This document shows positions 36,055 to 39,603 of a DNA stretch of 64,000 bases, in pieces. Every line of letters starts with the position of its first letter. Position 1 is the stretch's first letter. The DNA lies in assembly GCA_000230955.3 (NCBI GenBank), contig CP007060.1, forward strand, positions 2,300,216-2,364,215. The letters are read 5' to 3'. Both the position numbers and the translations under genes were made by a program. The DNA comes from Halobacterium sp. DL1. Its GTDB lineage: Archaea > Halobacteriota > Halobacteria > Halobacteriales > Halobacteriaceae. A model generated the notes under the pieces. It did no database searches. It was not told the origin of the DNA and was given only the letters and a program-made list of their open reading frames with translations.

Positions 36055-36732
36055 ATGACCGCGGAACTCCGGCCGGGCGTCTGGTGGCTCCCACAGCGCG
36101 GCGTCAATGCCTACCTCGTCGAGGACGGGGACGCGCTCACGCTCGTCGACGCGGGGATGCCGTGGCAGGCCGAAAACATCCGGCGGGGACTGGAGGTTGC
36201 GGGCTACCAGCCCCGGGACCTCGACCGCGTGCTGATCACGCATTACGACCTCGACCACGTCGGCGGCCTGCGCTCGCTTCTGGAGTCGGCCGGCGACGTG
36301 GACGTCTACTGCGGCGCCCGCGACGCGGACATCCTGACGGGACGCCGGAAACCGCCGCTACGCAACCGGAAGGGACTGTTCCACCGGCTCACCGGGTTCC
36401 TCGTGCCGTCGATAGAATCGCCGGTCCACAGCGTCGAGGACGGCGACCGCATCGGCGGCTTCGAGGCGATCCACACGCCCGGTCACACGGTCGGGCACAC
36501 GGCCTACGTCCACGAGGGGCGCGACGCGGCGCTACTGGGTGACCTGGTTCGCGCGGACGACGGCGCCCTCGAACCGTCGCCGGCGCTGCTGTCCGTGGAC
36601 ACCGACGACGTCGACGCGAGCATCCAGCGGGTGCTCGAGCGCGTGCCCGACTTCCGGGCGGCCTGCGTCGGTCACGGCGACCCGCTCCGGTCCGGTGGGC
36701 GAGCGGCGCTCGCGGCGGCCGTGGAACGTTAG
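36055..36732 (+). CDS. Metallo-beta-lactamase-fold hydrolase
   Basis: A 225-aa MBL-fold protein. The first metal motif is altered: THYDLDHVGG in place of HxHxDH, with Tyr at the second His position. Other ligands are present in HTPGHTVGHTAY, LLGDLVRAD and CVGHGDPL. The substrate is unknown. The 3' end overlaps the convergent next gene by 4 nt. Confidence 0.88.
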   Translation: MTAELRPGVWWLPQRGVNAYLVEDGDALTLVDAGMPWQAENIRRGLEVAGYQPRDLDRVLITHYDLDHVGGLRSLLESAGDVDVYCGARDADILTGRRKPPLRNRKGLFHRLTGFLVPSIESPVHSVEDGDRIGGFEAIHTPGHTVGHTAYVHEGRDAALLGDLVRADDGALEPSPALLSVDTDDVDASIQRVLERVPDFRAACVGHGDPLRSGGRAALAAAVER

Positions 36733-37301
36733 ACGAAGGGGCTGTCGTCGGGGTCGACGTCGTCCGGTTCCTCTGCGTCGCCGCGCCTGACATCGCCGTC
36801 CTCCGTCTCGACGTAGACGTCGTCGTCGTAGCCGGCGGCCGCGTTATCGAAGGTCGCGGCCTCCAGTTTCTCCGGGGTGGTCGGCGCGTCCGGGACGCCG
36901 CCAGCCGGACGGAACTCGCCCAACGGGTCGTCGATGCTGATTCCGTGGGCGTCGAAGAAGCCGGCGTAGCGGTCGTAGTGCGCCGAGAGTTCACCGGGCG
37001 GGAACTCCATCATCTCCGCCCAGCCGTGGTTGTAGAAGTCGAAGTTGCCGACGATGTGGGTTATCTCGCGGGCCGAAGCCTCCGTGTACCCTTCCTGGAG
37101 GGCGGCGAGGTACATGTCCATCGTCGCGTCGAAGAAGCCCGCGAGGTGGTCCTCGCGCTCCGCGCGCTGGGCCTCGGGCGCCTTGTCTGCGAAGATTCTG
37201 ACGTGGAGGTCGACGAGTTTCGGCCGCACGACGTCGCGGAGCCCCGGCAGTTCGAGCGCCTTCCGGGACGCGAAGTGACGGACGTTCTGACGAATCTTCA
37301 T
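36729..37301 (-). CDS. Conserved haloarchaeal protein, probably DUF6149
   Basis: A 190-aa acidic protein with conserved-looking KIRQNVRHFASRKALELPGL and NFDFYNHGWAEMMEFPPGEL, which I associate with haloarchaeal DUF6149 from memory. The C-terminal 40 residues are a disordered Asp/Glu tail. No catalytic motif is seen. It converges on the MBL gene. Confidence 0.78.
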   Translation of the reverse strand: MKIRQNVRHFASRKALELPGLRDVVRPKLVDLHVRIFADKAPEAQRAEREDHLAGFFDATMDMYLAALQEGYTEASAREITHIVGNFDFYNHGWAEMMEFPPGELSAHYDRYAGFFDAHGISIDDPLGEFRPAGGVPDAPTTPEKLEAATFDNAAAGYDDDVYVETEDGDVRRGDAEEPDDVDPDDSPFV

Positions 37302-37355: not shown

Positions 37356-37541
37356 TCAGTTGACGTACGCCACTTCGGTGTCGTCCTCGAACGGCACCCG
37401 CGTCACGCGCTTGAAGTACGTGACCCGGACCCAGCCTGGCTGCTCGGCCGGCTGGACGACGACGTTTTCGTCGTCCGGGAAGTCGAGGTGGTCACCGGGG
37501 CGGACGAGTTCGGAGACGAGCCTGTAGTCCTTCTCTGACAT
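37356..37541 (-). CDS. Small conserved protein, unknown function
   Basis: A 61-aa acidic protein (MSEKDYRLVSELVRPGDHLD...) that looks like a small all-beta domain. It lies 54 nt upstream of the previous gene in the same direction. The 250 nt above it, up to the Hsp20 stop, show no gene, only a short CGGTAA/TTACCG inverted repeat near 37565. Confidence 0.65.
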   Translation of the reverse strand: MSEKDYRLVSELVRPGDHLDFPDDENVVVQPAEQPGWVRVTYFKRVTRVPFEDDTEVAYVN

Positions 37542-37793: not shown

Positions 37794-38306
37794 TTACTGG
37801 AAGCCGATCTGGTGGCGGCGCTCCTGCTCGTCCTTCGGGACGGTTATCTCGCAGACACCGTCCTCCTGCGTGGCGCTTGCCTCCTCGGGGTCGATGTGCG
37901 CCGGGAGCGAGATGCGGCGTTCCAGGCGAACGGGTCGTTCGGTGAGCAGCGCGCTCTCGCCTTCGTCCGCGTCGAAGACCGGGTCCTCCGACCGGTCGGC
38001 GGTGATGAACAGGTTGTTCGCGTCCGCGTGGATGTCGATCTGGTCCTCGTCGAAGCCCGGGACGTCGATGTAGACGACGACGTCCTCGTCGGACTCGACG
38101 ATGTCGACCATCGGGATGGCGGCCGGCGGCTGCGAGCCGACGCCCCCACTACCGCCCTGTGCCGCTGGGGGCATCGACGACTGCGAACCCGTCGGCTGCC
38201 GCTGGCCCGCCATCGACGGCGCCTCCATCGGCGGCTGGCCCGACCTGGCGGCCGAACCGACGTTCGTGGAGACGTTCTCTCGCGGCCTCTCCTGGTCTCT
38301 GGTCAT
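37794..38306 (-). CDS. Hsp20/alpha-crystallin small heat-shock protein
   Basis: A 170-aa small chaperone. Residues 1-65 are a Pro/Gln/Gly/Ser-rich disordered arm. The alpha-crystallin domain (about 68-160) has VDIVESDEDVVVYIDVPGFDEDQIDI, RRISLPAHIDPEEASA and VCEITVPKDE. The classical C-terminal IxI tail is not obvious; the end reads QERRHQIGFQ. Its ATG overlaps the stop of the upstream Gln-rich gene (ATGA at 38303-38306), so the two are made from one mRNA. Confidence 0.92.
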   Translation of the reverse strand: MTRDQERPRENVSTNVGSAARSGQPPMEAPSMAGQRQPTGSQSSMPPAAQGGSGGVGSQPPAAIPMVDIVESDEDVVVYIDVPGFDEDQIDIHADANNLFITADRSEDPVFDADEGESALLTERPVRLERRISLPAHIDPEEASATQEDGVCEITVPKDEQERRHQIGFQ

Positions 38307-39283
38307 AGGTTTCGCTTGCTGGTCGTCCGCGATTCCTTGCCGCGGTACTGCCCGTAGCGGCCCTGCTGCTGGCCGCCCCGGTTCTGTTCAGTTCCCTGGT
38401 GGCGCTGACTCCCCTGGTGCTGCTGGCCTCCCTGATGCTGCTGGCCACCCTGGTGCTGTCCGACCTGGTGGGTTCCCTGCTGCTGGCCGTGCCGGCTCTG
38501 CTGGTGCTGCTGGCTTCCCTGCTGACCGTACTGCTGGCCGCCCTGGTGCTGTCCGGAGCGACCGTGCTGCTGGCTGCCCTGTTGCTGACTGGTTCCGTGC
38601 CGGTCACCCTGGTACTGCTGACCGCCCTGCTGGCGGCCGCCCTGGTGTTGCTGGCCCTGCTGGCCCTCGATCCAGTTCTGCTGGGAGTACTGTTCGCGCT
38701 CCTGCTGTCCGGAGTGCCCACCCTGCTGGCCCATCCGACCGTGCTGTTGATGGGTGCCCTGCTGACGCTGGCCGCCCTGGTGCTGCTGGCCGCCCTGGTG
38801 CTGCTGGCCGCCCTGCTGGTGCATCCCCTGCTGGCCGTGCTGTTGATGGGTGCCCTGCTGACGCTGGCCACCCTGATGCTGCTGACCGCCCTGCTGCTGG
38901 CCACCCTGGTGCTGGGGGCTCTGGTGACCCTGCCGCTGGCCCATCTGACCCTGATGTTGCTGGCCGCCTTGGTGCTGCTGATGGCCGCCCTGGTGCTGCT
39001 GATGGCCGCCCTGGTGCTGCTGATGGCCGCCCTGGCCCATCTGGCGCTGACCGCCCTGGTGCTGCTGGTGGCCACCCTGCTGCTGACTCGTCTGGTGCGG
39101 TCCGTGCTGCTGGTGCTGGCTGCCCTGGTGCTGACCGCCCTGGCCCATCTGGCGCTGGCCACCCTGGTGCTGGCGCTGACCGCCCTGCTGGTGTGTTCCC
39201 TGCTGTCGTTGCTGGCCTCGCTGCTGGCCCTGTCGATACTCCTCACCCTGTCGTGACTGTCGGTGTCGTGTGTCGTCGTTCAT
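38303..39283 (-). CDS. Gln/Gly/His-rich low-complexity protein, coupled to Hsp20
   Basis: A 326-aa protein, roughly three quarters Gln, Gly and His by eye, with Arg as the main charged residue and few Asp/Glu. It is built of short repeats such as HQGGQQHQGGQ, HQQHQGG and QRQQGTHQQHG, broken once by SQQNWIEGQQG near the middle. There is no signal peptide or membrane helix. Such composition resembles prion-like or phase-separating proteins and is contrary to the acidic proteome around it. It starts at 39283 (MNDDTRHRQS) and overlaps the Hsp20 start. Coupling to a chaperone gene favours this frame over the other open frames on this DNA. Confidence 0.72.
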   Translation of the reverse strand: MNDDTRHRQSRQGEEYRQGQQRGQQRQQGTHQQGGQRQHQGGQRQMGQGGQHQGSQHQQHGPHQTSQQQGGHQQHQGGQRQMGQGGHQQHQGGHQQHQGGHQQHQGGQQHQGQMGQRQGHQSPQHQGGQQQGGQQHQGGQRQQGTHQQHGQQGMHQQGGQQHQGGQQHQGGQRQQGTHQQHGRMGQQGGHSGQQEREQYSQQNWIEGQQGQQHQGGRQQGGQQYQGDRHGTSQQQGSQQHGRSGQHQGGQQYGQQGSQQHQQSRHGQQQGTHQVGQHQGGQQHQGGQQHQGSQRHQGTEQNRGGQQQGRYGQYRGKESRTTSKRNL

Positions 39284-39330
39284 AGTCGGAATCAGCCCCG
39301 CGTCGGGACGACTCAATCATCCACGGGAGA

Positions 39331-39340
39331 GCGAATAAAC
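39331..39340 (-). promoter_or_regulatory. TATA-like box of the Gln-rich/Hsp20 operon
   Basis: On the minus strand GTTTATTCGC lies about 50 nt before the start at 39283, predicting a 5' leader of about 25 nt. No heat-shock-specific element was recognised. Confidence 0.45.
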
Positions 39341-39603
39341 CGGCGCGATAGTTCACCCGAATTCAGGCGGTAGAAGTCCTGTAGCACACACTTACCGTAT
39401 TTCGTGACACAGACACCCACATCGGAAGGGAGTCGCCAACGGACGGGTGTGCGAGTCGTTACCCGGCGAAAGTCGGTCCTACTCTCGCTTTTTCCAGCGG
39501 TACTCCGGCGGTTCTGCGCCGGTTACCGCGAGCGGCCGAGCGTACGCCGAGGGTTACGGTCAGTAACTCCCAGGGGCGCCACTGCCAGGCAGATAGCAAT
39601 CCA
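39341..39603. other. Intergenic region, no gene seen
   Basis: Between the divergent Gln-rich and oxidoreductase genes no defensible frame is present. The base composition is less GC-rich near 39360-39410 (promoter-like). Confidence 0.5.

Follow-up and report, generated by a model that had tools for sequence, protein, structure and literature searches.

The locus examined here, in Halobacterium sp. DL1, raises the question of whether a protein made mostly of Gln, Gly and His and encoded directly ahead of a small heat shock protein (sHsp) of the Hsp20 family is a genuine gene product, and what such a chain might do beside a chaperone. The window is the whole stretch of 64,000 nucleotides that was analysed. 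Each element of the locus is known in kind, namely the sHsp, the Q-rich low-complexity chain and, in yeast, an sHsp with a prion-like arm. What appears to be new is a trans-encoded, coupled partner in archaea together with a third conserved small gene, for which we found no description in the open-licence literature. A paper connecting Hsp20, haloarchaea and a glutamine-rich partner was likewise not found in that literature, an absence that is weak evidence.

The glutamine-rich gene and its reading frame

The Q/G/H-rich gene occupies positions 38303..39283 on the minus strand (981 nt, 326 aa), with its ATG at 39283 and its TGA ending at 38303, and it consists of tandem QQHQGG-type repeats with a DNA period of 18/21. 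The composition of the product is Q 39%, G 24%, H 12%, R 7% and D+E 3%, with a computed pI of 11.6 and a GRAVY of -2.4, which confirms the first-pass annotation of a 326-residue repeat protein of Gln, Gly and His with few acidic residues. A protein is commonly regarded as prion-like when some 80-residue stretch contains at least 30 Q/N. The maximum in the Q-rich protein is 38, and the runner-up among the 375 six-frame ORFs of at least 100 codons in the 64-kb window reaches 12, so the prion-like character that had been proposed is borne out by the Q/N composition. The protein is predicted to be disordered and has no folded domain. No family in Pfam or NCBIfam matched it, in agreement with the earlier remark that no described family resembles it, and as a protein query across Halobacterium it retrieved only itself, probably owing to composition correction.

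Several frames are open in this DNA owing to its repetitiveness. The gene was aligned as DNA, with no frame imposed, to its counterpart in the sister genome (G010). All of the 16 indels in this alignment are multiples of three, the changes at codon positions 1, 2 and 3 number 75, 76 and 132, and the amino-acid identity is 0.58 in the annotated frame vs 0.44–0.53 in the five others. By these three features of the comparison the Q-rich reading frame is real, and a chance open frame within a repeat is ruled out. In the protein alignment the two orthologues are 64% identical, with anchors at the N-terminus, in the centre (YSQQNWIEGQQGQQ) and at the C-terminus. Decaying junk is ruled out as well, the gene being intact wherever the sHsp of this clade is present (the G005 copy is cut short by the end of its contig).

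The Hsp20 gene and the upstream region

The Hsp20/alpha-crystallin gene lies at 37794..38306 on the minus strand (170 aa), and its ATG at 38306 overlaps the TGA of the Q-rich gene as ATGA, exactly as had been read at first. Its product matches Pfam PF00011 with E=8e-15 and a score of 55.2 bits vs the curated cut-off of 20.8. M. jannaschii Hsp16.5, Halobacterium Hsp5 and other archaeal sHsps have the HSP20 domain in common with this protein, whose PDB matches are archaeal sHsps. The sHsps of this cassette differ from other haloarchaeal ones, which lack a Q-rich partner, in their longer Q/G/P arm and in ending with IGFQ/IAFQ. The conserved C-terminus in the alignment is ...RRH(E/Q)IGFQ, and most of the ten closest Hsp20s end in I-G-F-Q or I-A-F-Q, the canonical anchoring motif being I-x-I/V. 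The N-terminal arm had been described as Gln/Gly/Pro-rich; these residues are present, but the arm is only moderately Q-rich (7% Q in the whole protein).

Five PF00011 proteins were found in H. salinarum; the cassette sHsp has 18.54 kDa, and none of the other four is of that size. The sHsp-2 of strain NRC-1 was measured at 18.53 kDa and is reported to be induced more than 2-fold at 49 °C, with a reported pI of 4.04–4.07 that differs slightly from the 4.23 computed for the cassette sHsp (PMC1475562). The cassette protein thus matches the heat-induced sHsp-2 by mass only, which makes it plausible that heat induces the product.

Upstream of the Q-rich gene, a probable TATA box TTTATT was located at 39334..39339 on the minus strand, about 56 nt before the start codon, and its TTTA is invariant in nine genomes. 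Cross-genome comparison revealed a further conserved block, GAATTCGGGTGAACTATC, at 39348..39365 (minus strand), of which the form (G/A)AATTCG..TGAACTATC is common to most of the nine. Between the box and the ATG, in the probable 5' leader, a short hairpin GTCCC/GGGGC is predicted at 39295..39309 (minus strand), and among eight Halobacteriaceae genomes its stem carries compensatory or wobble changes (G-C to C-G, C-G to U-A, U-A to U-G). In these eight related sequences 94% of the cells are paired, two pairs are changed on both sides, and the covariation score was reached in 3 of 500 shuffles. With such weak statistics the hairpin is a lead only; it could add control at the RNA level, as an RNA thermometer that hides the ribosome site would.

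Distribution of the pair and a third gene

A total of 391 haloarchaeal genomes were sampled, and the loci were then read individually. A separate Q-rich gene of about 220–460 aa stands directly upstream of this Hsp20 subfamily in 24 of them, from five families; matches that carry a species name place relatives in Halobacterium, with H. salinarum and H. bonnevillei included. The ten genomes whose Hsp20 is closest all have a Q-rich ORF ahead of it with an identical ATGA junction. The other 14 pair genomes show no ATGA overlap, the sHsp start being located no more than about 20 nt from the Q stop. The prion-like region and the alpha-crystallin domain are encoded by separate genes in the window and in 23 other genomes, and they share one chain only in four more (G233, G306, G320 and G244), in which a Q-rich arm is fused N-terminally to the alpha-crystallin domain. 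An unrooted tree was built from 53 alpha-crystallin domains and has modest deep support; in it the Q-partnered sHsps (25 rows) lie to one side of a branch with support 91/80, and the fused forms fall in the neighbouring group. An sHsp-type ORF at locus L077 (G017, ORF 721-1953) has a putative N-terminal extension that reads as R/E/P/A-rich repeats (EAEPRREPR...).

Around the sHsp loci that fall outside the clade (L012–L030), a comparison set picked by similarity rank and not a random sample, no Q-rich ORF was found over a distance of about 1.5 kb. Nor was a Q-rich neighbour found for the five other sHsps in the DL1 genome or the four others in H. salinarum. Conversely, every sHsp of this branch among the surveyed genomes and the loci read was accompanied by a Q-rich gene or carried a Q-rich arm. 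The pair proposed by the first-pass annotation is thus conserved, co-inherited and dedicated to one Hsp20 branch; relatives that have the Hsp20 gene with no open Q-rich frame, which would have spoken against it, were not seen, the frame being either intact or missing together with the other two genes. As judged from these comparisons, the pair is a genuine conserved unit.

The boundaries drawn at first included the pair, which stands, but the unit extends further in the 3' direction. Downstream of the sHsp gene, at 37356..37541 on the minus strand, there is an unannotated gene for a 61-aa protein with three predicted beta strands and no Pfam or NCBIfam family. It adjoins the pair even where the remaining synteny is gone. 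This gene was found in 18 of the 391 genomes: 16 with a separate pair, one with a fused form (G233, in which it is kept beside the Q-arm sHsp) and one, G098, in which the match is weak and the context unrelated. It is therefore present in 16 of the 24 separate-pair genomes and is missing from eight Halobaculum-type ones, and its association with the cassette has a Fisher p of about 2e-21, a value that ignores relatedness. The predicted model (pLDDT 82, pTM 0.57) comprises three strands, and fold comparison gave no significant structural match to it. Genome G005 has a second, orphan copy of the gene after a helix-turn-helix gene (L118).

The cassette is flanked by a gene for a DUF6149 protein (36729-37301, minus strand), which forms one edge of an empty site in five of the 13 Halobacterium genomes. 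In these five the DUF6149 and NAD(P)/FAD oxidoreductase genes, which flank the cassette in the window, are less than 200 bp apart and all three cassette genes are absent. Because of these genomes, and because no genome was found to keep the sHsp without the Q-rich gene or arm, the comparison indicates that gain or loss affects the whole cassette at once. Recent mobile insertion is unsupported, as the Halobacterium site is syntenic with clean empty sites, yet the Halobaculum versions sit on large plasmids. On these plasmids (L079, L080, L082, L083) the pair is near plasmid orc1/cdc6 replication genes and a peroxiredoxin/FAD-oxidoreductase neighbourhood.

Composition and domains of the Q-rich partners

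The maximum Q/N content per 80 residues ranges from 26 to 61 in 22 relatives, three of which are below 30. Only the partners of the window genome (G000) and its sister G010 are Gly/His-rich, and most others are Q/P/A-rich. Across the partners the conserved trait is low charge together with Q, and not His or net positive charge. Some relatives offer few Lys/Arg sites. Since most partners are interrupted by proline (QP), amyloid is disfavoured.

Some of the partners contain more than the Q-rich chain. The Halobacteriaceae partners other than those of G000 and G010 have in common a short helix-like C-terminal segment, VE.A.T..LA..LARR.GLTSQQLAQ..P.L. The Halobaculum-type partners have a domain, here called domain B, that is predicted with high confidence as a four-helix bundle (pLDDT 92). 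In fold comparison it matches the copper storage proteins Csp1/Csp3 with a TM of about 0.8 over about 100 residues at 1.7–2 A (best E 2.7e-3), and a sequence-profile search of the PDB returned chance-level helical matches only. Unlike in Csp1/Csp3, the copper-binding Cys are nearly all missing in domain B, and the domain is fused to a Q-rich chain; a Cys-lined four-helix bundle was thus not found, and the window protein has no such domain. The fusion of the copper-storage-like domain to a Q-rich chain was observed at loci L065–L067, L069, L070, L072, L073 and L076 (Halobaculum and relatives).

Proposed function and alternative explanations

We hypothesize that the cassette is a split archaeal sequestrase, in which the Q-rich protein would serve as a multivalent scaffold that clusters Hsp20 and misfolded clients. 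We consider this the leading explanation and put it somewhat below an even chance. What is seen in the sequence is a low-charge, Q-rich, predicted-disordered protein encoded directly before one Hsp20 branch. Translational coupling may hold the amounts of the Q-rich protein and the sHsp in a fixed ratio. The Q-rich chain may bind both itself and the sHsp oligomer, the latter via the Q/G/P-rich N-terminal arm of the sHsp. Small heat shock proteins hold unfolding proteins. Here the alpha-crystallin domain would do so when cells face heat or low salt, while the scaffold would collect the complexes of chaperone and client in reversible condensates or deposits that Hsp70/thermosome/Cdc48-type machinery could later clear. 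Some genomes would have the scaffold fused to the sHsp as an arm, and the 61-aa beta protein may be an accessory. Condensation, client binding, physical contact and a role in stress are all what we infer from this arrangement.

The nearest known likeness is yeast Hsp42, a sequestrase of CytoQ deposits, in which a prion-like domain within the N-terminal extension converts holding into sequestration and is reported to drive aggregase activity (review PMC13287201). Both systems combine an alpha-crystallin sHsp with a Q/N-type low-complexity element, which in the four haloarchaeal genomes with fused forms is likewise in cis and N-terminal. In contrast to Hsp42, the haloarchaeal element is mostly a separate gene and is very Q-rich with hardly any N, and it would work in an archaeal cytoplasm at molar KCl with an extra 61-aa gene beside it. 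The analogy suggests that the cassette works like the prion-like extension of Hsp42, and membership of the Hsp42 group is not claimed.

The reverse relation, in which the sHsp chaperones the Q-rich protein, agrees with the gene pairing just as well. The Q-rich protein would then be the client, a cytoplasmic scaffold, filament or granule matrix that the overlapping sHsp keeps soluble. The operon coupling, the co-loss, and the folded copper-storage-like bundle or conserved helix-like segment of some partners agree with a client of this kind, but the window protein has no folded domain, and a Q-rich arm fused to the sHsp better fits a working part of the chaperone. The fusion thus favours the scaffold over a private chaperone, with which it is still compatible, and we regard the client explanation as rather unlikely. 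A hydrophilin or LEA-like protectant, that is, a very hydrophilic Gly/Gln-rich polymer acting against desiccation or osmotic shock beside the chaperone, would agree with the GRAVY and the 24% Gly of the window protein. However, high Gly is not conserved, as it falls to 2–12% in the QP-type orthologues while Q is kept, which makes this function distinctly improbable. It is also very doubtful that the chain is a sensor whose change of state with temperature, pH or salt switches the sHsp on: for Arabidopsis and Drosophila, low-complexity domains rich in Q or in Q and H have been cited as sensing temperature and pH (PMC11132505), and the leader hairpin could add RNA-level control, but there is no regulatory target and the hairpin rests on eight sequences. 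Metal binding by the 38 His in HQQHQGGHQQHQ-type repeats, raised by the first-pass annotation, is rejected as a general function and has almost no probability, because the His richness is peculiar to the lineage of the window (10–12% in G000 and G010, 0–2% in 21 other partners) and because hardly any Cys is left in the copper-storage-like domain found in the Halobaculum branch.

A wider form of the sequestrase hypothesis is possible, and we hold it more tentatively. It would mean that haloarchaea have a two- or three-gene sequestration module, in which a dedicated prion-like scaffold, trans-encoded and coupled, fused or separate, builds stress condensates at molar salt and undergoes fast sequence turnover (QP to QGH), with the 61-aa beta protein of a new family as regulator.

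Significance

Q-rich low-complexity regions make up a uniquely large share of eukaryotic proteomes in comparison with archaea and bacteria (PMC11132505). Here such a chain is stably tied to one chaperone branch across several haloarchaeal families. The presence of the cassette in the tractable Halobacterium salinarum offers a genetically simple test of prion-like scaffolds in non-eukaryotic protein quality control, and the cassette also bears on how condensates work where molar salt screens charge interactions. It suggests an archaeal route by which damaged proteins may be gathered into deposits, like that provided by the prion-like arm of yeast Hsp42.
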